From assembly GCA_020726185.1 (NCBI GenBank), contig DYTB01000016.1, positions 1-33,086 on the forward strand: a DNA stretch of 33,086 bases. The letters are read 5' to 3'. The stretch comes from Candidatus Odyssella sp. GTDB taxonomy: Bacteria; Pseudomonadota; Alphaproteobacteria; Paracaedibacterales; CAITNM01. The translations under genes were made by a program, and so were the position numbers. Shown here in pieces: positions 1-20,384 of this stretch; within the stretch, counting starts at the first letter, position 1; each line of letters begins with the position of its first letter. Below the pieces are notes generated by a model. The model was not told the origin of the DNA and did not search any database. It worked only from the letters and a program-made list of their open reading frames with translations.

Positions 1-332
1 GCAGTATGCCGCCTGCTTCTTTAAAAGCTTTATTTTGGCAAGCTCAAAGAGCTGGCATCCCACTCGTCTTTCGAGGTCTGATTGATAACTCATTTGAAAA
101 AACCAAGAGCTTTTTTGAAGAACATCAAATTAACGGAGAAATAGATCCTAACTTATTTTCTGAGTATCACGTGTCAGAAGTTCCGACATTTGTGATCCGT
201 GAAGGAAAGACATTTGATGTGCTTCAAGGGAATATTTCACTTGAAGATGCACTCACTCTTTTTAAGAAAAAAGGGGAGTTAAAAGATAAAGCGACTCATC
301 TTTTGACAACCATGAAAGCGTCACATTCATGA
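1..332 (+). CDS. trbC: TrbC, F-type conjugative pilus assembly protein (5' partial)
   Basis: C-terminal part of a TrbC-family protein, a periplasmic factor needed for F-type pilus assembly. The visible frame opens with S-M-P-P-A-S-L-K and then a GIPLVFRGL stretch, which matches the family pattern in which an 'F-S-M-P' strand is preceded by more N-terminal sequence. The first in-frame ATG at 6 is therefore an internal methionine and the gene begins upstream of the window. The later part, SEVPTFVIREG, resembles the thioredoxin-like end of the family. The stop codon overlaps the traN start (ATGA), showing translational coupling. The gene order trbC-traN-traF-traH-traG supports the call. Family assignment comes from remembered family patterns, not a search. 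Confidence 0.85.
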   Translation, partial: SMPPASLKALFWQAQRAGIPLVFRGLIDNSFEKTKSFFEEHQINGEIDPNLFSEYHVSEVPTFVIREGKTFDVLQGNISLEDALTLFKKKGELKDKATHLLTTMKASHS

Positions 333-2170
333 AAATATCGATATTCATTATTCCTGTTTTTTGTTGTCTGTGGCTTGTGACTAATCAGGCCTTGGCCACA
401 GATGAACGCTCGTATGGTCAAGGAGAAATCGTGGCGCAAGAGTCTAATGTAATGGCTGAGTGGGACTTAAAATCTGTACCGGGATTTAAAGAGCCGTCCA
501 CAATTTCTGAGACCTCGATTAATGAAAACAATATCGAAAACCGCATAGGACGTTCATTACAGACAAGCCAAAGTGCGGGGCTTGTTCAAGATACCTATAA
601 TCAAAGGTCTAGATTTGATTTGGATACAGAGCGGGATCCTTTATTTACTGATGCCGATAAAATTATAAAAAATCCAGAAAAAACTCTCAATGTGAAGGCT
701 CAAACGCAAATCCTTGGGATTGGCAAAACACGGCATAACTGCATCAAAGGTTATGATTTATTGGAGCGGAAATGTCGTTGGGTCAAGGTTGCTAGACAAA
801 CAGGTGTTAGAAGAGAAGAAAGAAAATATAGAGTGAATATTTCTGCTGTGGAGGCCGCTCGAAAGGGAGGAAGTTATGCTCACAAACTTCAAAATTTAGC
901 CATACAAGCTTATCCCACTAGATATTCTCGTGTCTTAAAAAATAAAAGCTTTAAACGAGTTATGCCTACTGAAGCTGTCCCCGCTTTTCTATCTGTATTC
1001 CATGGTCGAGATGAAAAGACAAGAAGACCAATTGCTATCGAAACAGATAATATTACGTCTGTTAAAGTACTTCGTCATTTTGGTTCATTGATAGAAATAA
1101 ATACAGGAAGAGTCGCCTCTGGTTTTGGTACTGAGGCTAATACACGACAGTATTATGAAGTAGAGGTCACCACCTTTAAAGAAATCCCTACTTATGAGCT
1201 GCAAGATTCCAACAACTGTCAAGATCTGGAGGGGCAGGTCGACACAGGTGCGTGTGAATATTCTTCCAAAAGGTGTGTTGAAGGCGCTGAAACCCGCCTG
1301 ATTGAGGGAACGCCTGTTTACTCTAAATGCTGGGCGGAAGAAGCGGTCTATCAATGCCGCACTGTTGAGGAAGATCACTGTACAGACTTTGCTAAAAAAG
1401 GGTGTCTTCAGATTGGCTCAAGGTGCCTTACTTATTTAGAGCAAGGTCACTGCGTTAAATGGCAGCAAACCTATGAATGCACATCCGGTAAAAGACAAGC
1501 CTCGATTACGACACTGACAGGTAAAACGCCCTTTTGTTTAGATGGACACTGTGTCGATCAAACCTGGGATGGAAATGCTGATATGGTTGATGCTCTTGCC
1601 AAACTCGCTATTTTCAAAGAAATGCAAAAAGGCCTTGATGCCAATATGGGTGTTGTCTTTAAGGGAAGAAACCTTGGCTGTTCTCGAGTGCCCACCGGAT
1701 TTAAGGACTGTTGTAAAATTAAGGGCTGGGGCAAGGATATCCACTTAGCGAGTTGCAGTCCCGAAGAAGAAGATCTAGGAGAGCAACGAAAACTAAATAA
1801 ATGCTTATTCATTGGAACTTACTGTGCCGATAAAGTGTTGGGTGTCTGTACCCGTAAGAAAACGACCTTTTGCTGTTACCCAAGCAAACTCTCAAAAATT
1901 ATTAATGTGCAAGGAAAACGACAGTTAGGGCTGTCCTTTGGCAATGCTGAACATCCTGAATGCGGTGGTTTGACCCTTGATCAAATTAGCCGGATTGATT
2001 TCTCACAGCTTGATTTAAGCGAGCTTCTCTCAGAGATGTTTGCCAACCTTAAAACCCCCAATGCAACCAATCTGGGCAAAGATATCCAGAAATCAATGAC
2101 CAATAAAACTTACATGATCAATGACAAAAAGAAAAAGATTACACAAGGAAAATCCCATGGCAATTTTTAA
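329..2170 (+). CDS. traN: TraN, outer-membrane mating-pair stabilisation protein
   Basis: Large exported cysteine-rich protein of the F-type transfer apparatus; TraN sits in the outer membrane and stabilises contact with the recipient cell. It has 613 residues, close to the roughly 600 of F TraN. A signal peptide covers about residues 1-23 (hydrophobic core IFIIPVFCCLWLV, then QALA before the cut). I count 24 cysteines in the mature part, concentrated between about residues 297 and 420 and again from 455 to the C-terminus, including two CC pairs; this fits the disulfide-rich family. The start overlaps the trbC stop, and the 3' end reaches 14 bases into traF, whose ribosome-binding site lies inside traN. 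N-terminal regions of TraN vary and contact recipient receptors, so specificity cannot be read here. Confidence 0.93.
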   Translation: MKISIFIIPVFCCLWLVTNQALATDERSYGQGEIVAQESNVMAEWDLKSVPGFKEPSTISETSINENNIENRIGRSLQTSQSAGLVQDTYNQRSRFDLDTERDPLFTDADKIIKNPEKTLNVKAQTQILGIGKTRHNCIKGYDLLERKCRWVKVARQTGVRREERKYRVNISAVEAARKGGSYAHKLQNLAIQAYPTRYSRVLKNKSFKRVMPTEAVPAFLSVFHGRDEKTRRPIAIETDNITSVKVLRHFGSLIEINTGRVASGFGTEANTRQYYEVEVTTFKEIPTYELQDSNNCQDLEGQVDTGACEYSSKRCVEGAETRLIEGTPVYSKCWAEEAVYQCRTVEEDHCTDFAKKGCLQIGSRCLTYLEQGHCVKWQQTYECTSGKRQASITTLTGKTPFCLDGHCVDQTWDGNADMVDALAKLAIFKEMQKGLDANMGVVFKGRNLGCSRVPTGFKDCCKIKGWGKDIHLASCSPEEEDLGEQRKLNKCLFIGTYCADKVLGVCTRKKTTFCCYPSKLSKIINVQGKRQLGLSFGNAEHPECGGLTLDQISRIDFSQLDLSELLSEMFANLKTPNATNLGKDIQKSMTNKTYMINDKKKKITQGKSHGNF

Positions 2171-2966
2171 GCAACTCCTGCTCTCCGGTTTATTGATGGT
2201 GACGACCTGCAATGCTGCTTCTTGGTACAGTAAAGACCCTGAAGGATGGCTGTGGTATAAGAAAATCCCGAAGAAAACGGTTCTGAAACCCAATAAAGAG
2301 AAAGCATCAACGCCGTCAGAGGCAAACAAGCCGCCAAGTTACCGTGAGCAAATGAAAAAGGTGCGTCAGAACTTTGATGAGGTACAAGCTAAAGCTATTT
2401 TGAATCCGACCATTGAAAACGTCACAGAGTTTCAAAGGGCGCAGAACACCGTCCTTAACCAAGCCGATATCTTTCAAAAGATGCTAATGATGGCAGCAAT
2501 GATGGAAGGACAAAATACCTCTACAGCCATGATGGCCACACCAGTTTCAAGGCAGCTTTATCAAGGACAACAGGAAAAGCAATTAGAAAAAGATATAAAA
2601 GCTTTAAGCAAAAGCTACGGCTTATTTTTCATCGTCAAAAATGACTGCCCTTACTGTCATCAATTTGCGCCGATTATTAAAGAAGTTGCCGAGGAATATC
2701 ATTTCGATATCAAAGCAATCTCAAAAGATGGGCTGCCCCTGGGAGGAGCCCTAATGCAAGAGTTTCCAGAGGCAGTTCCTGATAATGGCACGATCAAACA
2801 GCTTAATCCAGAAGGCATTTATCCCTGTTTACTTCTTGTTAACCCTCAGACAAGAGAAGTCATTCCGCTTGCCAAAGGGCTGATTAATAAATCCCAGTTA
2901 AAAGAAAACTTCCGGGTGATTATCCAATTTCTTAAGGGTCAACATCAAGGGAGGAGCCATTCATGA
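2157..2966 (+). CDS. traF: TraF, thioredoxin-fold pilus assembly protein with CPYC motif
   Basis: Periplasmic TraF-family protein of F-type conjugation, 269 residues from the ATG at 2157. I chose this start because AAGGAAA lies about six bases upstream and it begins an obvious signal peptide (MAIFKQLLLSGLLMVTTCNA, cut near residue 20); an in-frame ATG 36 bases earlier would add a charged leader. Mature N-terminal motif W-Y-S-K-D-P-E-G-W-L-W-Y is typical of the family. The C-terminal half is thioredoxin-like, with FFIVKNDCPYCHQFAP placing CPYC at residues 164-167. F-plasmid TraF is described as lacking CXXC, with disulfide exchange provided by TrbB or DsbC, so this copy may be redox-active itself. 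The stop overlaps the traH start. Confidence 0.93.
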   Translation: MAIFKQLLLSGLLMVTTCNAASWYSKDPEGWLWYKKIPKKTVLKPNKEKASTPSEANKPPSYREQMKKVRQNFDEVQAKAILNPTIENVTEFQRAQNTVLNQADIFQKMLMMAAMMEGQNTSTAMMATPVSRQLYQGQQEKQLEKDIKALSKSYGLFFIVKNDCPYCHQFAPIIKEVAEEYHFDIKAISKDGLPLGGALMQEFPEAVPDNGTIKQLNPEGIYPCLLLVNPQTREVIPLAKGLINKSQLKENFRVIIQFLKGQHQGRSHS

Positions 2967-4306
2967 GGAAGCATATTTGTACTATGATTAAATCATTAAG
3001 CCTTTTATTTATTGGGGCAGTTTTGTTGCCGGCTTCCGTAAATGCCGGTGCCCTAGATAAGTTTTTTGAAAGTTTGGGTGGCCAGGTTAATCATTCAACA
3101 CCGGGTTCTTATCAAGATCAAGCAGCGGGATATTATACTGGTGGTGGTTATGTGATGCGGCAGAACAATGCTGTCATTCAACCGATTAATATAAGTCTGC
3201 CCAGGCTTGGTGCCGGCTGTAATAGTCTTGATATGTACTTTGGATCCTTGTCCTTCTTACAAACAGATAAACTTGTTCAGTTGGGACGGCAAGTGATGAC
3301 CGGGATTCCAACATATGGGTTCCAGCTCGCTTTAAAGACTATGTCCCCGCAAATTGAAAACATGCTCTCTCAGTTGCGCAAATACGTTCAAGATATGAAT
3401 GCGACAATGCTGAATTCGTGCCAAGCTACCCAAACAATTGTCGGTGGTTTATGGCCTAAGGGAACAGCGGCCAGTGAACATATTTGCATGAATGAAATGC
3501 AAAGTGGCGGCAATATGGATTTGTTTGATGCAAGAAGTCACTGTGAAAAATCATCAACTGTCAACACCAAGGTAACGCAAGCTAAAAACAAGTATAAAGA
3601 CTTGTTAATGGGTGAATATAATCTTGTCTGGCACGTCCTTCAAAAGATGTCAGCTTACAAAGACAACAAACAATTAATTGATTTTGTCATGTCGGTGACC
3701 GGAACACTGATCTCAACTGTGGAGGACGGAAAACCTCGCCTTCGGGTAATTGAACCTCGTGCCGATCAAAAAGAGTTTATTGGTGCTTATTTAAAAGGGG
3801 GAGATACCTCAGCTTTAACTTGTAATGATCAACAAAAATGTCTTTTACCACGCCTGACTCAAGTTGCTATTCCAGATACGCAGTCTCTTAAAGCAAAAGT
3901 GATCCAGAAGATTGGCGAGCTTCGGGCAAAGTACGTTTCTAAAGAAAAGATCACTCCAGATGATATCCATTTTCTCAATGATGCTGTCAATCTTCCTGTT
4001 TACCGCTATATCCAGGTCAGTGTAGCAGCCGGCACAGTGTTTATGATGGAAGATGCAGCTGAATATATTGGTGCCAATGTTCTCTTAGCTCAGTTTGACC
4101 GAGTCATGAGTGAGATCCTGGAAGCCATAGATGCCATACAAAAAATTCAGCTAGAAGACTCAGCGATAGCAGAATTTAAGAAGAACCTCCAAGAAGCCAG
4201 AGGCCGTGTTCAGGCCATGTTGATTGGGGCAAACAATGGATCAATCCATTTACTCAATCAATCCATCCAGGCAATCGAACAATCAATCATCGCTAGAAAC
4301 AGTTAA
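2963..4306 (+). CDS. traH: TraH, F-type pilus assembly protein
   Basis: Exported TraH, one of the proteins needed to assemble and anchor the F-type pilus at the outer membrane. It has 447 residues (F TraH is about 458). The start at 2963 overlaps the traF stop (ATGA) and follows a strong GGGAGGAG ribosome-binding site. A signal peptide runs to about residue 28 (core SLLFIGAVLL, then ASVNA). Family-typical stretches include QPINISLPRLGAGCNSLDMY and IPTYGFQLALKTMSPQI, and the C-terminal 80 residues are alpha-helical with coiled-coil character. TraF, TraH, TraU, TraW and TrbC work as one periplasmic assembly group in F, consistent with this contiguous operon. The 3' end near 4240-4280 is locally repetitive (several CAATCA units) but the frame is intact. 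Confidence 0.95.
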   Translation: MRKHICTMIKSLSLLFIGAVLLPASVNAGALDKFFESLGGQVNHSTPGSYQDQAAGYYTGGGYVMRQNNAVIQPINISLPRLGAGCNSLDMYFGSLSFLQTDKLVQLGRQVMTGIPTYGFQLALKTMSPQIENMLSQLRKYVQDMNATMLNSCQATQTIVGGLWPKGTAASEHICMNEMQSGGNMDLFDARSHCEKSSTVNTKVTQAKNKYKDLLMGEYNLVWHVLQKMSAYKDNKQLIDFVMSVTGTLISTVEDGKPRLRVIEPRADQKEFIGAYLKGGDTSALTCNDQQKCLLPRLTQVAIPDTQSLKAKVIQKIGELRAKYVSKEKITPDDIHFLNDAVNLPVYRYIQVSVAAGTVFMMEDAAEYIGANVLLAQFDRVMSEILEAIDAIQKIQLEDSAIAEFKKNLQEARGRVQAMLIGANNGSIHLLNQSIQAIEQSIIARNS

Positions 4307-4318
4307 GAGGACAAATAA

Positions 4319-7045
4319 ATGGAATACAGTATTTATGTTTATGGTGGTGGCGACATCCTTTGGGCAGTCTTTAATGGGATCGCGATGCTATTCAAGAGTA
4401 ATAGTCCGTACTTTACTTCTGCCGCCAAACTGACAATGAGCATTGGTGTTTTATATGTGGCGGCTCAAGCCATTCCTAAAGCGTCACTACCGATCTTCTT
4501 TAAAAGCTGGTTCTTGCCAACCTTCTTGCTGACAGCGCTGTTTTATGGTCCGAAAACAGAAGTCCATATTATTGATAAAGCCAATACGGATTTTCAATAC
4601 GCTAAAGTGGATCACATCCCCTTTGGCATTGCTGCTGTCGCGGCTCTTTCAACTCAGATCAGTGAATATCTGACAGAAAATATTGAGACGGTTTTTGGGG
4701 TTGGGGAATCAGAAAAGTTCTCCAAAGTCGGTTCGATGTTTGGGACAAAGCTGATTCAAGCAGCAAACCAATTGACCATCAAAGATCCATTGATGAAAGA
4801 GAATCTGAAGGATTTTACAAGGCAGTGTTTTGCTTGGCCTTATGTTTTCTCAAATCTTGCTCCGGGTAAAAAAGCAGCCCTTGAGAGCGAAGATATGCTT
4901 GGGTTTATTGCCGCAAACCCTCATCCTCTACTTGGCATTTATTGGCGCAGCCCGAACGGTCAATCTTCCTTCATGAACTGTGTTGAATGTGCCAGAAAAG
5001 TGAAGCAAGTGATTGGTATAGAAGTCAATCAAGGTCTAGCCTCTCTTGCTCAAAATCTGTTTGGTGCGCATGTTGATCCCGAGCGAGCAACAAACCGTCT
5101 CAATCAATATTTTGGGGATGCATGGAGTAAACTCTCGAAAGGGTCAAGTAATTCTGCCGCTTTGGTTCAACAAGAACTGATGCTTAATTCTTACCGTGAA
5201 GCGATTCAAGATAAACGCGATGAACTTCGTTTAGGTCGATCTGAAATTGAGATGGCACATCTTAATGCTGCGCGTGGTATTGCTCAGCAAGACAGCTCTT
5301 TTTTGGTGAAAGCCTTTATGGCCGGCACTTTGGTTCCGATATTTCATACAATCGTTTTTGCTTTAGCCTTGATCTATTTCTCCATTATGGCGCCGATGAC
5401 CTTTTTACCAAAGGGAATGAGTCTTTTGGTGACGTGGGTAAAAGTAATGATCTACTTGGCAACGTGGCCGGCATTATATGCGATTCTTAACTGTATCGGC
5501 CAGATGTATGCTGTCAAATCTATGGCCACCAAAGTTATTGGTTATGGAGATGGTCTCACTTTGTTAACACAAAGTGGAATGAGTGATGCGGCTCACACGG
5601 CGTATATGGCAGCAATGGGAATGCAGCTCTCGGTTCCTTTCTTGGCCTGGACATTGTTGTGGGGCGGCGGCTATGCCTTTTCTCAATTAGCTTCATCTCT
5701 TACCCAAAGCTCTGAGTCTTTCGCAGGTAAAGCCGGATCTGAGATAGTTGATGGTAACGTGTCTTTTGATACGCAAAGTCTACATAACCGGTCTATTGCC
5801 AATGGTCAAATAGCGCAGCAACAGATGGGAGCTAATCTCAATTACGGCTCACGGATTGATGATGGAAAAATGGCGACTCTGTACGGTCAAGGCGGCCAAG
5901 TGACGATGCAAGAGCATCAAACCAATCTGGGTACCAACGTTTCGCAAAATGATGCGTTCAGTACCATGCTTGGCATGCAAAGTATGATGATGCAAAACTC
6001 CGGATTCCAGCAAACTCAAATGGCGCAAACGCAGTTCCAGAAAGGAATCAGCGATCTTGTCTCTGTTGGCAGTACCTTTGCCGATAACAAAAACTGGACG
6101 GATACGTTTGGGAATAGTGAATCAAGTCAAGCCCAGAAATCCTTAAGCAATTCTATGGATACCGCTGCCAAGTTTGCGAAAGACAATCATATTTCTTTAG
6201 GTAAATCTGTTCAAATTCTTACCCAAGCTGGTGTAAGTGCCGGCGTGGGTGTTGGTGGATTGGTTGGATCTTTATCAGGCTTAGCACAAACAAATTGGAA
6301 TACTGATGCTGCGGATAAAGAACTGCTTTCAAAAGCAAAGAGTAATGGAATGGGCGAAAGTTTTACTAAAAATTTCAATCACGGCATTCAATATTTACAA
6401 GACCATAAAGGCAGTGTTGGGAACTCTTCTCAGCTTCAAAAACTGGATCAGGCACAAAGCAGCTTTAATCAGTCTAAGTCATCTAGTGATCAAGCATCTG
6501 CCACTTTGAGTATGTCTAAACAATTAAGTCAGCAAGCTTCTGAACAACGTCAGCAAACTCTTTCTTCTAGCAGTAATATCAATCCTCAAGTCCTTCAATA
6601 CGTAGCGGATAAGAAGTTTGGTGGGAATCAAGTAGCTGCCGCACACTGGCAATCACAAAACCCTCAAGGTTATCATCAAGAAACCACTCGTTTCTTGGAA
6701 GAACGTAAGCAAGGCATAAAACAGGGAGGAATGTTTACTCCGCAAGATATCAATCAACATCATCAAGAGTCACAAAATAAGATTGAAAAGGTTACACCGC
6801 GCGGAGAAGAAATTCAAAAGCGTATAGACGGTCAATCAAAACAGCTTAATCAACAAGAAAACTCTTTCAATAGCAAGATATTCAACGAAGCCATTGAAGC
6901 ACAAAAAGGTATAAAAAAATATGACAAAACCATTGATCAAGGGAAAAAGAATATTCAACAAGCCCTTAATCAAAAAGAGAAGGAATATAATGCAGGTAAA
7001 GAAGAAAACTTAACAATCAAAGCATTTAAGAAGAAGATAACATGA
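4319..7045 (+). CDS. traG: TraG, mating-pair stabilisation and pilus assembly protein
   Basis: Inner-membrane TraG of F-type conjugation, 908 residues (F TraG is 938). AGAGGA precedes the ATG by a suitable distance, and only 12 bases separate it from traH. Hydrophobic segments occur near residues 33-53, 60-77 and 98-112, then a central group from about 326 to 392 and one near 438-455. The C-terminal 430 residues are hydrophilic and rich in Q, S and N, with long helical runs; in F this part acts in pilus assembly, mating-pair stabilisation and entry-exclusion recognition through TraS. The family N-terminus (VYGGGDILWAVFNGIAML) is clear. This is the last gene of the tightly packed plus-strand block; a minus-strand gene ends 17 bases beyond its stop. 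Confidence 0.94.
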   Translation: MEYSIYVYGGGDILWAVFNGIAMLFKSNSPYFTSAAKLTMSIGVLYVAAQAIPKASLPIFFKSWFLPTFLLTALFYGPKTEVHIIDKANTDFQYAKVDHIPFGIAAVAALSTQISEYLTENIETVFGVGESEKFSKVGSMFGTKLIQAANQLTIKDPLMKENLKDFTRQCFAWPYVFSNLAPGKKAALESEDMLGFIAANPHPLLGIYWRSPNGQSSFMNCVECARKVKQVIGIEVNQGLASLAQNLFGAHVDPERATNRLNQYFGDAWSKLSKGSSNSAALVQQELMLNSYREAIQDKRDELRLGRSEIEMAHLNAARGIAQQDSSFLVKAFMAGTLVPIFHTIVFALALIYFSIMAPMTFLPKGMSLLVTWVKVMIYLATWPALYAILNCIGQMYAVKSMATKVIGYGDGLTLLTQSGMSDAAHTAYMAAMGMQLSVPFLAWTLLWGGGYAFSQLASSLTQSSESFAGKAGSEIVDGNVSFDTQSLHNRSIANGQIAQQQMGANLNYGSRIDDGKMATLYGQGGQVTMQEHQTNLGTNVSQNDAFSTMLGMQSMMMQNSGFQQTQMAQTQFQKGISDLVSVGSTFADNKNWTDTFGNSESSQAQKSLSNSMDTAAKFAKDNHISLGKSVQILTQAGVSAGVGVGGLVGSLSGLAQTNWNTDAADKELLSKAKSNGMGESFTKNFNHGIQYLQDHKGSVGNSSQLQKLDQAQSSFNQSKSSSDQASATLSMSKQLSQQASEQRQQTLSSSSNINPQVLQYVADKKFGGNQVAAAHWQSQNPQGYHQETTRFLEERKQGIKQGGMFTPQDINQHHQESQNKIEKVTPRGEEIQKRIDGQSKQLNQQENSFNSKIFNEAIEAQKGIKKYDKTIDQGKKNIQQALNQKEKEYNAGKEENLTIKAFKKKIT

Positions 7046-7062
7046 AGATGAGTCATATTTTA

Positions 7063-7650
7063 TTATTTAGAAATATAATTTGGGGAAGAAGGATTCAAAA
7101 ATCCTATGGGGTTCGATGGATCTTCCATGCCTCCCATAGGACGATATCCATGAAGATAGGACGATCTTCCAGATTTTTGATTGCTTATTTGAGTTTTTGC
7201 GCCTACCCAAGGGTAAATCATTTTTTTATAAGCCAAATAAAGGCCTGCAAGAAGCCTAAAAGTGAAATACATCGAACAAAAGGCAGAGTCATAATCAGTG
7301 CCAAACTTAAAGAACATGTCAGCGACAATGGCTATGCAGGATACAAAAAAAGCGCCGTTCCTCAGCCACATGTAAACGGTCGAGTGACGGTCAAGGCTTT
7401 CTCTGCTCATTCCAACTTTATCAAACCAACCTTGGGGAGTTACATCAGATTCTTTGACACCCTTAAATTCGAAATACCACCAATCAATCAAAACACCGGT
7501 GGCCAAATGCATGAAAATTGCTTCAAACAGATAGCCAAAATAAGCAATAGGAAGACTCACCAAAAAACTCAAAACCATGCGCTTATCGCGGTAGAAAAAA
7601 GGGCGACGTGTAGAAAGATTCTCAGTCATTGGTTTAGCTATTCCGGGCAT
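7063..7650 (-). CDS. Multi-pass membrane protein between traG and traD, unknown (possible exclusion protein)
   Basis: Hydrophobic protein of about 195 residues from the ATG at 7650; an in-frame GTG at 7704 and ATG at 7629 are alternatives, and none has a strong ribosome-binding site. At least three membrane segments are visible: a long one starting MVLSFLVSLPIAYFGYLF, a second with FFVSCIAIVADMFF, and a third with FRLLAGLYLAYKKMIYPW. The C-terminus is polar. I prefer this strand over the overlapping plus-strand frame because only this one has coherent membrane segments. It faces traG tail to tail and interrupts the transfer operon. Its size and topology loosely recall DUF4400-type membrane proteins of conjugative elements, but I cannot confirm that. 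By position it matches traS/traT, the exclusion genes of F. Confidence 0.7.
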   Translation of the reverse strand: MPGIAKPMTENLSTRRPFFYRDKRMVLSFLVSLPIAYFGYLFEAIFMHLATGVLIDWWYFEFKGVKESDVTPQGWFDKVGMSRESLDRHSTVYMWLRNGAFFVSCIAIVADMFFKFGTDYDSAFCSMYFTFRLLAGLYLAYKKMIYPWVGAKTQISNQKSGRSSYLHGYRPMGGMEDPSNPIGFLNPSSPNYISK

Positions 7651-7763
7651 AATGTACACTATTTCATACTTTATTTTACCACATATGATCCTAAAAAACT
7701 TCACTTTTTTAAATATTTACAAGAGTTAACAATTCTTTCTTTTTCGATTCAAAGGAGATGCGC

Positions 7764-8291
7764 ATGAATATAAATTACTACTCTAACCAAATTAAAAACG
7801 CTGTTGATCAAAACCCTAAATGTATCACCGGTATATTAGTGACAAATAGAGTTTTTGTCCGAGAAGAAGGTAAGGCTGGAAAACAGGAAGTGCTGTGTTT
7901 GCTCTATGCTGATCTATACGATTGTTATATTTGGGGGCATGTATTTTTCCATGAGGGGCTTGATCATTATGTTTCATGTCTTGTCGATTTTGAGTCTCTT
8001 ATTTCTGGGAGAACTGTTGACCATCTATTTGACCGTTTTGATTGGTATATAAGGCAAAAAGGTAATTGGCAACCTGTCACTATTCAAGAAGAGTGGAATG
8101 CTTTTGCTATGAGCAACAATTTTGCTGATGCTTGCTCTGCGCTGGTGAGAATGATTGGCGCTTTTGATTTCACCAAGCGTAGCCCTTTCGAAGATGATGA
8201 AGCTAATAATGATCCCAGTGAGTACCGTATTTTAAATGTTTACCCATTTCCTAGTTGCGACCGCGATAACTGGGAAAAACCTCCTTATTAA
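7764..8291 (+). CDS. Hypothetical soluble protein between traG and traD
   Basis: I do not recognise this 175-residue protein. The start at 7764 is preferred over the in-frame ATG at 7758 because AAGGAG at 7752-7757 is directly adjacent to the earlier ATG but six bases from this one. No signal peptide or membrane segment is visible. The sequence is rich in aromatic residues (for example FDWYIRQKGNW) with an acidic patch FEDDEANNDPSEY near the end, and it has five cysteines. It lies 33 bases upstream of traD in the same direction, so the two are probably co-transcribed. It could be an accessory of the coupling protein or an exclusion-related factor; nothing in the sequence decides this. Confidence 0.75.
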   Translation: MNINYYSNQIKNAVDQNPKCITGILVTNRVFVREEGKAGKQEVLCLLYADLYDCYIWGHVFFHEGLDHYVSCLVDFESLISGRTVDHLFDRFDWYIRQKGNWQPVTIQEEWNAFAMSNNFADACSALVRMIGAFDFTKRSPFEDDEANNDPSEYRILNVYPFPSCDRDNWEKPPY

Positions 8292-8324
8292 AATTTCTTT
8301 TTATTACGAAAGGCTAAATAATTT

Positions 8325-10127
8325 ATGAGCTTAACCAAGAATTTTACCCAAGGTGGACAAGTCACCCTCCATAATCTTCGGATGATCCGACAAGTATTAA
8401 GTGTGACATTAGGAACGACGCTAATAATCAGCTTATTATTCTTCGGATTTAAAACCTGGCAAGACCATACGCCCTATCAGCGGCAAATTACCCTGACATA
8501 TTTAGTGGCACAGCTAAAGACAGGAATTCCTTTTGGAGATATCAGTAAGCGAACGCAAACATTTGTTTACCAGGATGGTAGAAGGCAAAAAGTGAGATCA
8601 GTAGATATTATAAATGATCCTTGGATGAATATAGAAATAGATCACATTTCTAACATGATATTATCTAATGCCTTTAAAACTTTATGGTTGTTCTTAATAA
8701 GTACATTAGTCTTCATTGGTTTTTGGATGTGGCGAGGCAAGAAAAAAGAAGAAAGCAAGTTGCTGAAAGGTGTATCTATTCAATCACCAAAAGTTGTTAA
8801 AAAGATTATTACTAAAAAGGGTGCTGCCGATATCAATTTAGCGGGTATTCCGATGCCAAAAGAAACGGACAAAGAGCATACGATGATTTGTGGGACAACG
8901 GGTGCTGGGAAAACGAACGCTATTAACAATTATATTAATCAATTAAAAGAGCAGGATCTCAAAACACTGATTGTAGATACTACAGGAAATTATATTGCCA
9001 ATTTTTATGATGAAAAAAAAGACTATTTACTCAATCCATTTGATGACCGTTACACTTATTGGAATCTGTGGAGTGAAGCCGTTGATGATTATGAATATCT
9101 TGAGTTTGCGGATAGTTTGATTCCTGTAAAAGTTCGACAGGATGAATTTTGGGTCAATGCCTCAAGGCAGCTTCTAACAGTGGGAATTACTACCTTAAAA
9201 GAAGAAAACAATTTTAGTATTAAAGAGTTGTTGAATTTCCTAGTTGTATTGCCATTAGATCAAGCTCACAGAAAGCTATCTCATACGTTGGTAAGTGCTT
9301 ACCTTGATCCTAAGAACGAGAAAACAGCCTTAAGCATTCGCGCCTCCATGATAGCTGCTTTATGGAGTCTCCAGTATCTAGGTAAGCCTTCTAAAGATTC
9401 AGGGTTTTCTATTCGTAAGTGGTGTGAAGATGATAAAGATAGGGGCTGGCTTTTCTTGGCTGCTCAACCAACCCAGCGGAGTATTCTGCAGCCACTTTTA
9501 AGCGGTTGGCTAAGTATAGCAGTGAAATCCTTAATGGCACGAGGTGAACATAAAACACGTCGGTTATGGTTTATTATGGATGAGCTTGCCTCGATTAATC
9601 ATCTACCAACATTAGAGAGAGGTTTGGCTGAGGTTAGAAAATGCGGTGGATGTTTTTTGATTGGATTTCAGGATATAAATCAACTTTTCAAGATTTATGG
9701 CCAATACGATGCTCAAACAATTCTTGGCCTATTGGGTACTCAAGTTGTGATGCGTTCCCAGCGTAAGCAAGCGGATGCTTTGTCACAATGTTTTGGCAAT
9801 AAAGAAGTGATTGAGCAAGTAAGAAGCATTTCCTTCGGAGCTAACGATATGAGAGATGGTGTCTCATTAGCAGAACACTTAAGGGAGAAACCTGTGATTT
9901 CTCCTACAGATATTATGATGTTGGATAAAGGGGAAGCCTATGTGCGTTTCAATGGGAATTTTCCTTATACAAAACTAAAATTTCCAATGGCTTCCGTTGA
10001 GGTACAAGCCCCAGCATTTATAAGAAATCCTCTCTTATCTGAGCGTCAAACAAAGCAAGATCTTGATGAGTTTAAGCAACAACATGATCTGGTAGTTGAA
10101 AGTGAAAAAACTACTGAATATACGTAA
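8325..10127 (+). CDS. traD: TraD, type IV coupling protein
   Basis: Hexameric inner-membrane ATPase of the VirD4/TraD class that brings the relaxosome to the secretion channel. It has 600 residues. Two N-terminal membrane segments lie at about 23-42 and 117-136 with a periplasmic loop between them (contains GIPFGDISKRTQTF). Walker A is GTTGAGKT at 190-197, and Walker B is LWFIMDE at 414-420 followed by the family stretch LASINHLPTLERGL. It is shorter than F TraD (about 717), lacking the long Q-rich C-terminal tail that contacts TraM. The ribosome-binding site ACGAAAGG is weak but well placed. About 110 bases of AT-rich sequence with operator-like repeats follow, so the transfer block ends here. 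Confidence 0.95.
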   Translation: MSLTKNFTQGGQVTLHNLRMIRQVLSVTLGTTLIISLLFFGFKTWQDHTPYQRQITLTYLVAQLKTGIPFGDISKRTQTFVYQDGRRQKVRSVDIINDPWMNIEIDHISNMILSNAFKTLWLFLISTLVFIGFWMWRGKKKEESKLLKGVSIQSPKVVKKIITKKGAADINLAGIPMPKETDKEHTMICGTTGAGKTNAINNYINQLKEQDLKTLIVDTTGNYIANFYDEKKDYLLNPFDDRYTYWNLWSEAVDDYEYLEFADSLIPVKVRQDEFWVNASRQLLTVGITTLKEENNFSIKELLNFLVVLPLDQAHRKLSHTLVSAYLDPKNEKTALSIRASMIAALWSLQYLGKPSKDSGFSIRKWCEDDKDRGWLFLAAQPTQRSILQPLLSGWLSIAVKSLMARGEHKTRRLWFIMDELASINHLPTLERGLAEVRKCGGCFLIGFQDINQLFKIYGQYDAQTILGLLGTQVVMRSQRKQADALSQCFGNKEVIEQVRSISFGANDMRDGVSLAEHLREKPVISPTDIMMLDKGEAYVRFNGNFPYTKLKFPMASVEVQAPAFIRNPLLSERQTKQDLDEFKQQHDLVVESEKTTEYT

Positions 10128-11315: not shown

Positions 11316-11343
11316 TTGATTTATCTTCTAACTAATGTAAAAT
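11316..11343 (+). promoter_or_regulatory. Predicted sigma-70 promoter of the methyltransferase
   Basis: TTGATT at 11316-11321 and TAAAAT at 11338-11343 are separated by 16 bases, a good match to a vegetative promoter. Transcription would begin near 11350, leaving about 30 untranslated bases before the ATG at 11382. This also argues against the upstream in-frame TTG at 11316 being the start. A second TATAAT lies at 11361-11366 without a well-spaced -35. Confidence 0.45.
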
Positions 11344-11381
11344 TAAAAAAAATAACCATGTATAATGTTGTTAAGGGTAAT

Positions 11382-12641
11382 ATGAAAATACATTATTCTA
11401 TTTCTGAGCTTGCTGATATGTTATCCGTTTCAAAAGAAACTCTTCGTAGATGGGATAAAAATGGCCAATTAAAGCCTATACGTCACCCAATCAACAATTA
11501 TAGAGTTTACCATAAAGACCAATTGCGTAGTTTTGAGAAACTAGGGTTTTTATTTCAGAAAAGAGAAGAATTTCAGGAATTACCAATTAAGCAATATAAA
11601 GTCATTGAACTCTTTGCTGGAGGGGGAGGGTTAGCTTTGGGCCTGGAGAAATCTGGTTTACAGTGCATAATGTTAAACGATATTGATAAATGGGCTTGTG
11701 AAACTCTTAAGAAAAACCGTCCTCATTGGAATGTCATTTACGAAGACATTTCTAAAATCGATTTTACACCTTATATGGGTGCTGTTGATATAATGACAGG
11801 AGGATTTCCTTGTCAATCTTTCAGCTACGCTGGTAAAAAACTAGGTTTTAATGATATACGAGGCACACTGTTCTATGAATATGCAAGAGCAGTCAAAGAA
11901 GTTCAGCCTGCGATTTGTATCGGAGAAAATGTTCGAGGCCTAGTTAATCATGATAATGGTCGAACTATTCAAGCAATGAAGGACATTTTGACGGAATTGG
12001 GATATACAGTATTAGAACCCAAAATTCTTAAAGCTATTTTTTATCGAGTCCCTCAAAAAAGAGAGCGTTTAGTTATAGTTGCTATCAGAAATGATTTAGC
12101 ACATTTACCTTTCATATATCCTGAACCCCATACAAAAATATACTCTTTAAAAGATGCTTTAAAAAAAGGTGAGCTTTTTAATACAGACGTGTCCGCCTCT
12201 TCTGGCCAGAAATATCCAAAAAGAAAATCAGAGATTATGAGTTTAGTACCTCCGGGAGGCTATTGGCGAGATTTACCCTTTGAGCTTCAAAAAGAATATA
12301 TGCTTAAGAGCTATTATTTAGGAGGAGGTAAAACTGGAATGGCGAGGAGAATGAGTTGGGATGAGCCATGCCTTACCCTCACCTGTGCGCCTGCTCAAAA
12401 ACAAACAGAAAGGTGCCATCCTGAGGAAACACGACCCTTCACAGTTAAAGAATACGCCCGTATTCAAACATTTCCAGATGATTGGGAGTTTATGGGGACA
12501 CTTACTAATCAGTATAAACAAATAGGTAATGCTGTTCCTGTTAATTTAGCTTATGAAATAGGATGCTCCATTGTAAAATTTATGAACCAGCTTCAAAATA
12601 ATGTAGAACGTAATACATTAAGGCTCGAAGATGCGGCTTGA
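11382..12641 (+). CDS. DNA cytosine-5 methyltransferase with N-terminal MerR-type HTH
   Basis: Type II modification enzyme that methylates cytosine at C5 to protect DNA from its partner nuclease. It has 419 residues from the ATG at 11382, which has AAGGG just upstream. All main family motifs are present: motif I FAGGGG (78-83), motif IV GGFPCQS with catalytic Cys144, motif VI GENV (181-184), motif VIII QKRER (225-229) and motif X GNAVP (382-386). Residues about 5-58 form a MerR-like helix-turn-helix (SISELADMLSVSKETLRRWD, then NNYRVYHKDQL), an addition to the usual enzyme. N-terminal HTH parts in enzymes such as M.SsoII and M.EcoRII repress their own operons, so this one may regulate expression. 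The target-region stretch resembles Sau96I/Eco47II-type enzymes, but I cannot assign the recognition site. Confidence 0.95.
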   Translation: MKIHYSISELADMLSVSKETLRRWDKNGQLKPIRHPINNYRVYHKDQLRSFEKLGFLFQKREEFQELPIKQYKVIELFAGGGGLALGLEKSGLQCIMLNDIDKWACETLKKNRPHWNVIYEDISKIDFTPYMGAVDIMTGGFPCQSFSYAGKKLGFNDIRGTLFYEYARAVKEVQPAICIGENVRGLVNHDNGRTIQAMKDILTELGYTVLEPKILKAIFYRVPQKRERLVIVAIRNDLAHLPFIYPEPHTKIYSLKDALKKGELFNTDVSASSGQKYPKRKSEIMSLVPPGGYWRDLPFELQKEYMLKSYYLGGGKTGMARRMSWDEPCLTLTCAPAQKQTERCHPEETRPFTVKEYARIQTFPDDWEFMGTLTNQYKQIGNAVPVNLAYEIGCSIVKFMNQLQNNVERNTLRLEDAA

Positions 12642-13366
12642 TCAGAAACCTCTTTCGCTAAATTCTGAATTTCGGGAGTACTAGCTAGATTGGAAATTAC
12701 TTCTTCTAGTTCATGGGTGAAGTTTGCTTCTTTAGCGATAATCCCTATAGACTTAATAAGGTCATGATAAAAATTAGGATCACCTGTTAATCGTGTCCAG
12801 AAATCTTGTCCAATTAGCACAGTATAATCATACTTTTGAGTGATACTTTTGTAATGAGAACTTAGATCATTTTCATGCCCATATAGAACGCCAACAATTA
12901 AATTATTATATCCTAAATTCAAATTATTAGTACGGGCGAGATTTTTAATAGATTTAAAATGATTTGAGATAGTCTCAACATCGTCTTTATTAATAGTATT
13001 AGGCCCCGCTTTTAGCTGACAATATTTTTTTAATCCGTCTACAGCATCATCAAACTCTATATCTATTCCACGAGTCGTACTTCCAAAAGAGGAAAGAACT
13101 TTGCTTGCGAAGCTCTGCATATTTTGTCCGAAAGAAGTGGTAATAGAAGTGCCTAATACCCTTGGATAAATAAGGGCTTTTGCTATACTTTCAGGGGTGG
13201 CGTCCCCCGTTAGAAAATTGGCTAAATAAACGGTCAAAAATGGATTGATGTGAAATGCATCAGGATTAGAAAGCTTCTTAGTATTTTTAATATGGTTTTT
13301 AGAAATAGTATCTCTAAACCAATCTTGAGCTTTTAAAAGAACTTCTTTTTTGTGCTGCTCATCCAT
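12593..13366 (-). CDS. PmeII-family type II restriction endonuclease
   Basis: Probable partner nuclease of the adjacent methyltransferase, 257 residues. I recognise the PmeII family from conserved blocks such as NTKKL near 28-32, INPFL...YLANFLTGD, AKALIYPRVLGTSI and the KAGPNTINKDDV segment. A PD-(D/E)xK-like core is visible: GIDIEF (Asp102/Glu104) followed by CQLK with Gln117-x-Lys119. The family call is from memory of these blocks. The gene is convergent with the methyltransferase and their 3' ends overlap by 49 bases, so the two transcripts are mutually antisense there. The ATG at 13366 has no strong ribosome-binding site. A promoter and palindromes lie just upstream, suggesting separate control from the methyltransferase. 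Confidence 0.85.
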   Translation of the reverse strand: MDEQHKKEVLLKAQDWFRDTISKNHIKNTKKLSNPDAFHINPFLTVYLANFLTGDATPESIAKALIYPRVLGTSITTSFGQNMQSFASKVLSSFGSTTRGIDIEFDDAVDGLKKYCQLKAGPNTINKDDVETISNHFKSIKNLARTNNLNLGYNNLIVGVLYGHENDLSSHYKSITQKYDYTVLIGQDFWTRLTGDPNFYHDLIKSIGIIAKEANFTHELEEVISNLASTPEIQNLAKEVSDQAASSSLNVLRSTLF

Positions 13367-16637: not shown

Positions 16638-16660
16638 TTTTATTACCTTTTTATAGAGAA

Positions 16661-16804
16661 TTACGATTTTAGAAGTTTGTCGCCATGAGGTCTAATTTTA
16701 CCATCTGGGTTAATATAACGATAAAATGTAGAACGCGTAAGACCTATTTCTTTACAAAATTCTGATATTTTTTTATCGAACTTGCTCATAGATGCTTGAG
16801 CAAA
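16661..16804 (-). pseudogene. Serine resolvase C-terminal remnant
   Basis: The minus strand reads AQASMSKFDKKISEFCKEIG followed by LTRSTFYRYINPDGKIRPHG and D-K-L-L-K-S before a TAA stop at 16663-16661. This aligns without gaps to the last 47 residues of the complete resolvase at 19773-20384, at about 85% nucleotide identity by hand count. Homology ends abruptly at 16804, right after the shared bases TTGAGCAA; the catalytic domain is absent. The divergence shows it is not a recent copy. It marks one edge of the 3.1 kb segment that ends with the intact resolvase. Confidence 0.85.
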
Positions 16805-16895: not shown

Positions 16896-17483
16896 TTATT
16901 TCAGCATTAACTTATCCCACCAATTCGTGGAGTATTTTAATTTTGCAAATTGACCTATATCTAAATATTTTTTCATTATTTCGAAGGCTTTATTTGCGGC
17001 CTCATGACAAGTTTTTTGAGTTTTTTTAAAACAATTTTTTTTATCTTTGTCTATATCCCCAAATAAATTTATAATATCGTTAATATAATCATTAATATCC
17101 TTAAGTTCCTTTTTTGCTAATGGAAAAATTAGAGTTGCTTCAACTAACAAGGGAGCAACTTTTTCTTTTTGGCTTAGTAAAACATCCAATTCGGGAGAAT
17201 AGGGGCCTGCCATTTCCTCTACTTCATTAGGGTAAAGTGCGGCGTTATATTGTTCTGATTCAGTTAGTGTGGGATACCAATTGCCATCATGGGAAAGCTC
17301 AGAAGTGAAGAACCTCAATTTAACCTGCAGTTCCTGAAATAAAGCTCTTCTTCTGTCTAATGCTCTAAAATTTATATCAACATTAAGTGTTTTGCTATTT
17401 TGCCTTAACGTATATATGGCGAATCCAATGGTTGCTAGGAGTGCACCAAACGTTATATAATTTTGTATTTGACCATCAGTCAT
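16896..17483 (-). CDS. Membrane-anchored hypothetical protein
   Basis: Protein of 195 residues with one membrane segment at about residues 9-26 (YITFGALLATIGFAIYTL) and a long cytoplasmic or periplasmic helical part. A segment FRALDRRRALFQELQVKLRF follows the membrane helix, and two cysteines lie at about 150 and 159. AAGGAAAA upstream supports the ATG at 17483. I do not recognise a family. It is the last gene in a minus-strand run of exported or membrane proteins between two resolvase ends, 67 bases downstream of the lipoprotein gene, and may act with them at the envelope. Confidence 0.75.
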   Translation of the reverse strand: MTDGQIQNYITFGALLATIGFAIYTLRQNSKTLNVDINFRALDRRRALFQELQVKLRFFTSELSHDGNWYPTLTESEQYNAALYPNEVEEMAGPYSPELDVLLSQKEKVAPLLVEATLIFPLAKKELKDINDYINDIINLFGDIDKDKKNCFKKTQKTCHEAANKAFEIMKKYLDIGQFAKLKYSTNWWDKLMLK

Positions 17484-17550: not shown

Positions 17551-18372
17551 TCATTTTTTAAACTCGATTTTTTGACCAGAACGAATTCTCCATGGCTGTC
17601 CTGACATTCCGAATTCTAAATCTGCTACACCATTTTTAGCGGCAATTTTAATGAATTTGCCTTTGAGACCTTTGCTCAACTTTTTTGTTAATTTATCTAC
17701 AACCATCGGATCTGATAGTATAGAAGAGTCTTCACAATTGACGAGTGTCATATGTAATCCGGCAGATATTGGCTTGTCGCCCAGGTAAATAGTTTCGTGA
17801 TTGTTAAAAAACAACTTAGCCATGATAAATGAAGGCCCTTTATCATTTTTTGTGATGACTATTTCAGATATTTTAAAACGCCAATATGGTTTAATAATGG
17901 TGCTGTACCTGGTGCTGACAGTTTCTATATCTGTGGGTGTCTCGCAATTTTCGAATAAAACATTACAGACTTGCTCTAAGGTTTCAGAAGAATGAAATCC
18001 CCTCGGACTTGTATACAATAATGTTGCATGCATTTCCTCACCGACATTAGGTCTACTTTTTTCTGCATAGTGATCGATTCGAATATCACCATTCTCCCTC
18101 TTTAGAAGGATTTTTGCATTATTATCGCCTGATTCTTTTGTAATATGCAGAATTGATTTTAGCACATCCTTAGTTAATGCATTGATTTCTTTAAGACCGA
18201 TATAATCATTGCCGCTTTCTTCCTCAAAATGAATCTTAGCACCGATTTTCCACCCGTTGTCTGGCTTTGATAAACGTTGATGATTGTTTTTATCAGTTAA
18301 ATGGTTGCAAGCTACTAATAAAACGGTTGCTAAAAATAAAATTATATTCAGTTGAATTCTGTTTTTCCTCAT
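17551..18372 (-). CDS. Lipoprotein with two HxT motifs (2H phosphoesterase-like)
   Basis: Exported lipoprotein of 273 residues. I chose the ATG at 18372 because it begins a clear lipoprotein signal (FLATVLLVAC, lipid-attached Cys21 of the precursor); longer in-frame starts would bury it. Two HxT motifs in hydrophobic strands, MHATLLYTS (His115) and LHMTLVNCE (His207), are 92 residues apart. That is the signature of the 2H phosphoesterase superfamily (LigT, CPDase, AKAP7-like), which acts on 2',5' or cyclic phosphodiester bonds in RNA or nucleotides. The superfamily call is by motif only. It lies 112 bases downstream of an exported nucleotidyltransferase-fold gene, hinting at linked nucleotide chemistry outside the cytoplasm. 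Other interpretations, such as an unrelated lipoprotein with chance HxT pairs, remain open. Confidence 0.8.
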   Translation of the reverse strand: MRKNRIQLNIILFLATVLLVACNHLTDKNNHQRLSKPDNGWKIGAKIHFEEESGNDYIGLKEINALTKDVLKSILHITKESGDNNAKILLKRENGDIRIDHYAEKSRPNVGEEMHATLLYTSPRGFHSSETLEQVCNVLFENCETPTDIETVSTRYSTIIKPYWRFKISEIVITKNDKGPSFIMAKLFFNNHETIYLGDKPISAGLHMTLVNCEDSSILSDPMVVDKLTKKLSKGLKGKFIKIAAKNGVADLEFGMSGQPWRIRSGQKIEFKK

Positions 18373-18484
18373 AAAATATCCCGTTTTAATTTCTTCGTAA
18401 ACCACAGCACCATCTCTTTCATAGCTTGCTAAGGCATACCCCCGTTTCTGTAATTTAACCCAATATATCAATAACAGAGATGCT

Positions 18485-19270
18485 TCATCCCTGATACAAC
18501 CCATTTTCCGTGATAATTTTAGCCACACCAGGGCTTACCATGCGTCCAATGGCCTCGCCCGCCTTCAGGGCTTTTTTCACTCTTGTGGAGGAAAGACTCT
18601 GCTCTTTTTCGCTTTGGATAACTGCGATAATGGGGCGATCGATAATGCTATTGTTGAGTGAAGAAATGTCATCACCAGTTCGCATGGCCACGATGAAGGT
18701 CTTGGCTGGCAGAGCCATCAATCCACCCAATGTGCTGTTGTGATATTTCTCAGGAACCTGAAGTCCCGTGAGAAAAGGACGAGCTGCCTCCGGCTTTGAA
18801 ATCGCAAGGGCGGTATCAGACCCTACAATTCCAATGAACTCAAGACCTGGTATGGCGACTTCTATCATAGGCTTCCCTTCTGGAGATTGTTGAGCGCTGG
18901 GTTTGGTTAGGTAACGCTGCATGTCCTGGGGAGACAGCCTTGTGACAATCACTTTTGGATGATCGGCAAAAGCTGAAAACACCATGTCATGGCGCAAATT
19001 GATACCTACCCTTTTCTTGTAATTGTCTCCGCCCCAGGCAGGATAGATCAGAACGTAATCACAAAGTCCATTTTGAATTGGCAAATTCGCAACATCTTCA
19101 TGACCCAAGTGTAGCGGATCAAAGGACCCAACGTAATACCCGACTTTTTTATTTGAGAGGGTTTCTTCAAGGATCCCTTGCGAGATAAGTTCCTCTAGAA
19201 ACAGAGCATTCACGGGGGATGTTAGTATTAGGATAAGAGAGAGAGCTAGAGGCTTTAAAGAGTTTATCAT
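18485..19270 (-). CDS. Exported NadD/cytidylyltransferase-like nucleotidyltransferase
   Basis: Nucleotidyltransferase-fold protein of 261 residues with an N-terminal signal peptide (LALSLILILTSPVNA, cut near residue 22). The fold signatures are intact: GSFDPLHLGHED with the HxGH motif at 54-57, IVGSDTAL near 148-155, and SLSSTRVKKAL (226-236) corresponding to the ISSTxIR motif. NadD and related enzymes transfer a nucleotide to nicotinate mononucleotide, pantetheine phosphate or similar acceptors in the cytoplasm, so an exported member is unusual. The ATG at 19270 follows AAAGGATC; a longer start would place a basic stretch before the signal. A small secreted ORF ends one base upstream. Substrate is unknown; ATP or CTP supply outside the cytoplasm would be needed, for example from a host. 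Confidence 0.85.
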   Translation of the reverse strand: MINSLKPLALSLILILTSPVNALFLEELISQGILEETLSNKKVGYYVGSFDPLHLGHEDVANLPIQNGLCDYVLIYPAWGGDNYKKRVGINLRHDMVFSAFADHPKVIVTRLSPQDMQRYLTKPSAQQSPEGKPMIEVAIPGLEFIGIVGSDTALAISKPEAARPFLTGLQVPEKYHNSTLGGLMALPAKTFIVAMRTGDDISSLNNSIIDRPIIAVIQSEKEQSLSSTRVKKALKAGEAIGRMVSPGVAKIITENGLYQG

Positions 19271-19271
19271 T

Positions 19272-19448
19272 TTATTGATCCTTTTTTTGGAGCCATGGCA
19301 AACCCCGCATAATAACCGCAATTATCTTACACTTCCCTTCATCTTTTTGCTGAGCATATGCATTTATAGCTGAAAAAAAATAACTTAAAATTAAAGGGGA
19401 TATACTTACATGCAAGAATTGCGCACCATTTTTAAAATATTTATTCAT
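19272..19448 (-). CDS. Possible small secreted peptide
   Basis: A 58-residue frame from the ATG at 19448, with GAGGG five bases upstream. It has a signal-like hydrophobic part (HVSISPLILSYFFSA, then INAYAQQ) and a short polar remainder with one cysteine. Its stop codon is one base before the exported nucleotidyltransferase start, consistent with translational coupling. No family is recognised. It may be a true secreted peptide or a leader frame only. Confidence 0.4.
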   Translation of the reverse strand: MNKYFKNGAQFLHVSISPLILSYFFSAINAYAQQKDEGKCKIIAVIMRGLPWLQKKDQ

Positions 19449-19501
19449 ATATACCCTCATTTAGTGAATTTAAACTTATAAAATACAATCTCTAGGATGT
19501 T

Positions 19502-19711
19502 TTATTTCTTTTTAGAAAAATGCAATATTTCTGATCTAGAATCAGATAATCCTCCTTTTAATGAAGTTTTTTCAATCCACTTTGCATTTAAAAAATAAGA
19601 CATCTCCTCTTCGGGTTTTATTTCTAAATGGCATGGGTAAAAGTTGAGTTTATCAGGTGAATGATCACATCCAGCTAATATTACTACACTTAAAATAAAA
19701 AACTTCTTCAT
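19502..19711 (-). CDS. Small lipoprotein
   Basis: A 69-residue protein beginning MKKFFILSVVILAGCDHSPD, a textbook lipoprotein signal with the lipid-attached cysteine at residue 15. The mature part is about 54 residues with one further cysteine (FYPCHLEI). AAAGAAGA upstream supports the start. It lies upstream of the small secreted frame and the exported nucleotidyltransferase in the same direction. Small lipoproteins of conjugative elements sometimes act in entry exclusion, but no specific family signature is visible here. Confidence 0.65.
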   Translation of the reverse strand: MKKFFILSVVILAGCDHSPDKLNFYPCHLEIKPEEEMSYFLNAKWIEKTSLKGGLSDSRSEILHFSKKK

Positions 19712-19772
19712 AAATTCTTCTTTATAGATGGCTATTAATATTCATTTCTTATAATTTTTACTTGAAAAAGTA

Positions 19773-20384
19773 CTATGATTTCAGAAGTTTATGTCCATGA
19801 GGTCTAATTTCACCTTCTGGGCTAATATAACGATAAAGAGTAGAACGCGTAATCCCTATTTCTTTACAAAATTCAGATATCTTTGTATCCCGGTTACTCA
19901 TCGATGCTTGAGCAAGTCGAAGTTGAGATTTGGTAAGGGCGAATTTACGACCCCCATTTCGTCCACGCGCTCGCGCAGCTTCTAACCCCGCCATAGTCCG
20001 TTCACGAATCAATTCACGTTCAAATTCTGATAACGCTGCAAAAATCCCAAAAATCATTTTTCCACTGGCAGTGGTCGTATCAATATTAGCGCCTTGACCT
20101 GTCAGAACCTTAAATCCAATTTCTCGTGTTGCAAGATCTTGAACAGTATTGACAAGGTGCGCCAAATTACGGCCTAAGCGATCGAGTTTCCAAACAATAA
20201 GAATATCCCCTGCCCTCAAATTTTTAAGACAGGACTTTAATCCCGGACGATCATCATTTTTTCCTGAAGCCATATCTTCATAAATGTAATCTGGATGAAC
20301 TCCTTCTTGTAAAAGAGCATCTTTTTGCAGATCCATATTTTGAGATCCATCAGCTTTAGAAATTCGAGTGTACCCTATCAACAT
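19773..20384 (-). CDS. Serine resolvase/invertase
   Basis: Complete site-specific recombinase of the small serine (Tn3 resolvase/invertase) group, 203 residues. The catalytic serine is Ser9 in GYTRIS, and the conserved KLDRLGR block lies at 66-72. Further family motifs are TASGKMIFGIFAALSEFERE and LIRERTMAGLEAARARGRNG. A C-terminal helix-turn-helix at about 165-190 (ISEFCKEIGITRSTLYRYI) binds the res or inversion site. A 14-base palindrome lies 11 bases upstream of the ATG. A diverged remnant of the same gene end lies 3 kb away at 16661-16804. It could resolve plasmid multimers, invert a segment or belong to a lost transposon; no transposase accompanies it. Confidence 0.95.
   Translation of the reverse strand: MLIGYTRISKADGSQNMDLQKDALLQEGVHPDYIYEDMASGKNDDRPGLKSCLKNLRAGDILIVWKLDRLGRNLAHLVNTVQDLATREIGFKVLTGQGANIDTTTASGKMIFGIFAALSEFERELIRERTMAGLEAARARGRNGGRKFALTKSQLRLAQASMSNRDTKISEFCKEIGITRSTLYRYISPEGEIRPHGHKLLKS

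Follow-up and report, generated by a model that had tools for sequence, protein, structure and literature searches.

A predicted exported NadD-family nucleotidyltransferase and a 2H-fold lipoprotein within a resolvase-bounded stretch of a Candidatus Odyssella genome

The window analysed here is a stretch of 33,086 nucleotides from Candidatus Odyssella sp. (contig DYTB01000016.1, C42 in our numbering). The genome, 1.54 Mb in 53 contigs, is related to uncultured alphaproteobacterial MAGs. Two neighbouring genes encode a nucleotidyltransferase of the NadD/NMNAT family (NTase) and a lipoprotein with a predicted 2H phosphoesterase fold, both with putative export signals (Table 1). They are accompanied by two short ORFs, which an earlier sequence-only reading of this DNA had described as a small lipoprotein and a tiny secreted peptide. 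That description fits their N-termini, a clean lipobox in one and a signal-like start in the other; neither ORF had a relative in any locus retrieved. Every exported gene lies within the 3.1 kb between two copies of a direct repeat, which are 83% identical and correspond to the 3' ends of an intact and a degraded resolvase gene. This arrangement suggests that the stretch is a cargo segment. It also contains a gene for a 195-aa protein with an N-terminal membrane segment, for which Pfam gave no match. Promoter and terminator scans did no better than on shuffled sequences, and an operon is neither supported nor excluded by them. Elsewhere in the window, F-type conjugation genes (TraN, TraG, TraD and neighbours, 329-10127) indicate that the contig carries a conjugative element, and a type II restriction-modification pair, a MerR-fused C5 methyltransferase with an EcoO109I-type endonuclease, lies at 11316-13366.

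Table 1. Positions of the features discussed, in window coordinates unless a residue range or another locus is given.
Feature	Position	Strand	Detail
154-nt direct repeat, left copy	16650..16803		degraded 3' end of second resolvase gene; 42-codon remnant 16661-16789
195-aa protein	16896..17483	-	inside repeat-bounded stretch
2H phosphoesterase-fold lipoprotein, 273 aa	17551..18372	-	motifs and AlphaFold model
2H lipoprotein features	lipobox LLVAC22; H115-A-T117; H207-M-T209		catalytic-type motifs
NTase-2H intergenic gap, 112 nt	18373..18484	-	read directly
NadD/NMNAT-family nucleotidyltransferase, predicted exported, 261 aa	18485..19270	-	motifs, profile, N-terminus
NTase features	residues 1-22; 54-57; 227-233		putative signal peptide; HxGH; SSTRVKK
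58-aa ORF	19272..19448	-	signal-like N-terminus; stop one base before NTase start codon
69-aa predicted lipoprotein	19502..19711	-	lipobox LAGC followed by D
154-nt direct repeat, right copy	19762..19915		3' end of intact resolvase
Serine resolvase	19773..20384	-	Pfam Resolvase, HTH_7
NTase and ABC exporter half-transporter genes, family f6	L017:7670-10447; L018:8682-12412; L021:7138-11248		three loci

The NTase gene starts with an ATG at 19270, with a ribosome-binding-like AGGA just 5' of it, and ends with a stop codon at 18485-18487. Its catalytic motifs are intact, namely GSFDPLHLGH (HxGH) and SSTRVKKAL, and the motif residues F, D, P, H, G, H, S and S are invariant among the aligned relatives. 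Searched as a single sequence against NCBIfam, the protein ranks NadD models first (E 4.6e-10), and the family profile matches solved NadD structures in the PDB at 5e-14 and 7e-12 and human NMNAT1 at 5e-7. NadD is the top match in both collections, above other nucleotidyltransferases, which bears out the fold family and motifs read from the sequence alone; in Pfam, CTP_transf_like was matched slightly under the cut-off (E 6e-4). The scores of 38-39 bits fail the equivalog test of the curated NadD models (cut-offs 112 and 150, TIGR00482 and NF000840), so that the protein classifies as a divergent NadD relative and as no NadD equivalog. A tree of exported and cytoplasmic NTases places the former outside the group of NadD and CoaD, with the deep branches and the placement of the G125 sequence uncertain. 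An AlphaFold model of the NTase, computed from single-sequence input (pLDDT 37), gives the fold no support.

The first 22 residues of the NTase (MINSLKPLALSLILILTSPVNA, followed by LF) form the putative signal peptide. The shape of such a peptide, a hydrophobic stretch followed by small-x-small, is kept at the equivalent place in 10 relatives and is missing from the genome's housekeeping NadD, a 183-aa protein encoded on contig C6 beside an RsfS-like gene. The HxGH patch is the only part that the two proteins have in common. The signal peptide claimed for the NTase is thereby corroborated, and the enzyme is predicted to be Sec-exported, not cytoplasmic like the NadD equivalogs. A first genome scan with the single NTase sequence returned no matches; the relatives, 32-52% identical, come from six other genomes of the order and four sampled genomes from other families of the class. 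Some carry long extra N- or C-terminal parts, and in G181 the gene is split. The exported NTase of G035 (L016:8614-10443) is extended at its C-terminus by 330 aa in which AVFKP..GEVVAYQCSLALGFPNIPP occurs; to the eye this part is kinase-like, and Pfam gave no match for it. Three genomes of one family (f6) have the exported NTase gene next to a similar gene for an ABC exporter half-transporter. Furthermore, G006, a genome of the window's genus, encodes a second, unrelated exported nucleotidyltransferase (L080:4535-5140), a lipoprotein (LLNAC) that matches CTP_transf_like at E 3.3e-14 and whose gene adjoins two ABC half-transporters. A viral or phage origin of the NTase was considered and rejected, as its profile matched ordinary NadD-like phage proteins only, at about 24% identity.

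The gene of the 2H lipoprotein starts with an ATG at 18372 and encodes the lipobox LLVAC, followed by N, and the motifs HATLLYTS and HMTLVNC. The H and T/S of both motifs lie in conserved blocks and are invariant in the members that carry both, those of Chlamydiae included. Searches of Pfam, PHROGs, NCBIfam and the PDB did not detect a relationship by sequence; the 2H claim therefore rests on the structural model and the motifs. For the AlphaFold model, the protein was aligned with relatives found in MAGs, four of them alphaproteobacterial and three from Chlamydiae; the model reached a pLDDT of 76.7 and a pTM of 0.78. Its best Foldseek matches in the PDB are a phage phosphodiesterase and an Arabidopsis Appr>p phosphodiesterase (E 4e-3 and 1e-2). 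VIA-align returned 37 PDB entries with Z from 10.4 to 5.2 before a drop to 2.6; nearly all are known 2H proteins, the exceptions by name including two trypanosome mitoribosome chains, and the Arabidopsis enzyme leads at Z 10.4. In a viral library the top matches were 2'-5' RNA ligase and cyclic phosphodiesterase proteins (E 3e-6). A 2H fold, as suspected from the two HxT motifs, is thus supported by the model, and no metallophosphoesterase domain of the CpdB kind was found with Pfam. The fold data do not choose among RNA-type, ADP-ribose-type and cyclic-dinucleotide substrates. A viral or plasmid origin of the gene was rejected, with no relatives in IMG/VR or PLSDB.

The same matches bear on the idea that the lipoprotein, perhaps with the NTase, acts on host signals, either by cleaving cGAMP like Acb1 and the avipoxvirus cGAMP phosphodiesterase or by reshaping ADP-ribose or NAD signals. 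Acb1 (Z 8.0; viral Acb1, E 7e-4) and the penguinpox cGAMP phosphodiesterase (Z 7.6) are among the structural matches; however, they tie with RNA-type 2H enzymes, the best match is the Appr>p enzyme, and the fold does not give the substrate. An enzyme directed against CBASS should, moreover, work in the cytoplasm and not be an exported lipoprotein. We regard action on host signals as unlikely.

Members or remnants of the 2H family were also found in 8 of 234 Chlamydiae-class genomes. In one Chlamydiae MAG (L087), DUF2608 (HAD-type, E 1.3e-34) and the 2H domain make up the N- and C-terminal halves, respectively, of an exported protein of 523 aa. L121 has a DUF2608 gene (E 7.7e-34) that encodes a signal; it ends in TGATG, where it overlaps by one base the start codon of a gene for an exported 2H protein. 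With this fusion and this operon, exported HAD-type DUF2608 is the recurrent partner of the 2H domain in Chlamydiae; the chance of two of six Chlamydiae 2H loci being joined to DUF2608 is about 1e-4 to 1e-3, a rough figure that assumes 3-10 copies per 2000 genes. DUF2608 is present in 32 of the 42 genomes of the window's order, as against none of 14 control genomes, and the exported NTase gene of G148 is preceded, at a distance of 41 nt, by a DUF2608 gene. The window's genome has its DUF2608 genes on other contigs, among them a lipoprotein version on C14, and none near the NTase and 2H genes. No mention of DUF2608 was found in the literature searched. Other arrangements of the 2H domain include a fusion to a C39-like peptidase (L088) and, in the Chlamydiae genome G433 (L119:2056-3270), a C-terminal domain (GSGPMGIRN..GDIDIIV) that by eye resembles pol-beta-type nucleotidyltransferases; Pfam gave no match for this domain, and a free-standing ORF similar to it lies upstream (552-905). 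GrpB-GNAT fusion proteins adjoin the 2H gene in G047 and lie near the NTase gene in G148 (L084:5655-6599, L075:10282-11235).

Our survey of homologues covered 42 genomes of the window's order and a sample of the class, with the 234 Chlamydiae-class genomes added for the 2H family. The NTase was found in 11 genomes and the 2H gene in five Alphaproteobacteria. Within the order, seven genomes have the NTase, four the 2H gene and two both, these being the window's genome and G019, in which the genes lie on different contigs and the 2H copy is broken by a stop; the class sample held no further genome with both. The two genes are adjacent in the window only (1 of 11 NTase genomes). The survey thus does not support a conserved two-gene system, and the pairing put forward in the sequence-only reading falls for want of a conserved neighbourhood. 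A true two-gene system, with the NTase adding a nucleotide that the 2H enzyme removes or resolves outside the cell, would still find encouragement in the common strand, the 112-nt spacing and the export signals of both, as well as in the G433 protein, whose extra domain by eye resembles another kind of nucleotidyltransferase. We consider it highly improbable, given the differing distributions and the recurrence of DUF2608 as the 2H partner. GC contents point the same way: the NTase gene, at 46.6%, and the 2H gene, at 35.0%, arguably differ in origin (resolvase 40.5%, most neighbours 28-35%). Moreover, about 40 nt just 5' of the 2H start resemble the region 5' of the homologous gene in G010/G017, which suggests that the 2H gene has a leader of its own. 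The best reading is that the NTase and the 2H protein are separate, laterally spread enzymes, predicted to act on host nucleotides outside the cytoplasm, and the simplest one for the segment is that it was built gene by gene.

A segment assembled in this way might also hold decayed or non-functional cargo of a mobile element, to which the flanking resolvase sequences, the two orphan small ORFs, the broken 2H copies in G019, G490 and G510 and the split NTase of G181 could be taken to point. Both genes of the window are nevertheless full length with all catalytic motifs, and comparing the 2H gene with the closest related sequence gives a dN/dS of 0.15/0.79, or about 0.19; we regard decay as an improbable account.

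The NAD pathway of the carriers bears on what the NTase may do. Full NadE matches (245-259 bits) occur in five genomes of the order, all without the exported NTase, and full NadE is absent from all seven NTase genomes of the order, which gave weak matches or none (in G019 a 57-bit, stop-broken remnant). A second NadD-like gene of NadD size is missing in most NTase genomes; the window's genome has one, and the other PF01467 genes in the remaining NTase genomes are CoaD- or HldE-like by size, with MAG incompleteness weakening all these NadD and NadE absences. With no full NadE, adenylylation of NaMN would lead nowhere. The usual NadD product would thus lack its next enzyme, which favours one of three options, namely conversion of NMN to NAD, use of a different substrate or a role directed at the host. 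The sequence of the NTase does not itself discriminate between NMN and NaMN. The enzyme probably makes NAD or an NAD-like dinucleotide from a host mononucleotide and ATP. Intracellular Chlamydiae import NAD via NTT transporters, and NTT4 of Protochlamydia has been described (PMC5381601).

We postulate that the two exported enzymes encoded in the window are separate and have each spread laterally, and that in this host-dependent alphaproteobacterium they came to lie together in a resolvase-bounded cargo segment; of their substrates, site of reaction and uptake step, we infer the following. By analogy with its fold relatives, the 2H lipoprotein would open host-derived cyclic phosphates, be they 2',3'-cyclic nucleotides or RNA ends or ADP-ribose 1'',2''-cyclic phosphate. 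The exported HAD phosphatase (DUF2608) would then remove the remaining phosphate, and the products would be taken up. Likewise outside the cytoplasm, the NTase would use host ATP to adenylylate a mononucleotide of host origin, the most plausible reaction being NMN to NAD, yielding a product for uptake or altering the host NAD pool. We advance this account as a tentative one, credited with a little less than an even chance; against it, ATP would have to reach the NTase beyond the inner membrane. The general idea of nucleotide chemistry outside the cytoplasm, raised when this DNA was first read, survives in it, backed by the exported DUF2608 partner, without the NTase-2H pair.

Alternatively, instead of serving salvage in the envelope, the exported proteins may enter the host cytosol as effectors, with RNA ends and NAD as their targets there. 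In the survey they occur only in small genomes of a host-dependent type and are common to Alphaproteobacteria and Chlamydiae, the long C-terminal part of the G035 NTase and the C39-like peptidase joined to another 2H domain would suit effectors, and a review names T6SS as the likely effector route in Holosporales (PMC11909080). Plain Sec and lipoprotein signals, however, usually keep proteins in the envelope, and we judge an effector role somewhat unlikely.

Beyond this locus, host-dependent Alphaproteobacteria and Chlamydiae may draw, through lateral transfer, on a common set of exported enzymes in varying combinations (2H, DUF2608 HAD and NadD-like NTase) by means of which NadE-less bacteria would process host cyclic nucleotides and make NAD or NAD-like dinucleotides outside their own cytoplasm, a generalization that we put forward as possible, if doubtful. 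Both enzymes are unusual outside the cytoplasm, and each represents a known fold family in a new, exported form. A NadD-family enzyme with a conserved signal peptide, in bacteria that have no full NadE, raises the question of whether some intracellular bacteria complete NAD, or another dinucleotide, outside their cytoplasm, a step that would precede NAD import such as that by NTT4 (PMC5381601). The link between 2H and DUF2608 is the most useful new lead; the fusion provides a functional handle on a domain that is frequent in the window's order.

Compared with known systems, the NTase resembles NadD (PDB 8aih, 1kam; TIGR00482) in HxGH, SSTxxR/K, a C-terminal NadD-like signature and its profile match (E 5e-14). 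Unlike NadD, it carries a putative signal peptide and about 50-70 extra residues between the motifs, scores under the NCBIfam equivalog cut-offs and belongs to an organism without full NadE. The lipoprotein shares with the 2H superfamily (Appr>p cyclic phosphodiesterase 1fsi/1jh6, Usb1, LigT/ThpR, Acb1 and the phage BCSR5 phosphodiesterase) the modelled fold and two HxT motifs on predicted strands. It differs as a predicted exported lipoprotein with an extra N-terminal part and without detectable sequence similarity to the 2H proteins of the PDB and Pfam, and in belonging to a family fused or linked to DUF2608 in Chlamydiae. DUF2608 itself (PF11019), exported and HAD-like, recurs in physical linkage with the 2H domain and adjoins the NTase in G148, yet in the window it adjoins neither gene. 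The proposed pathway is closest in job and place to CpdB, the periplasmic 2',3'-cyclic phosphodiesterase/3'-nucleotidase (PMC4905662), in that cyclic nucleotides would be opened and then dephosphorylated outside the cytoplasm. In CpdB a single metallophosphoesterase chain does both; in the proposed pathway the job would be split between a protein of 2H fold and a second protein, the HAD phosphatase, or between the two parts of a fusion.
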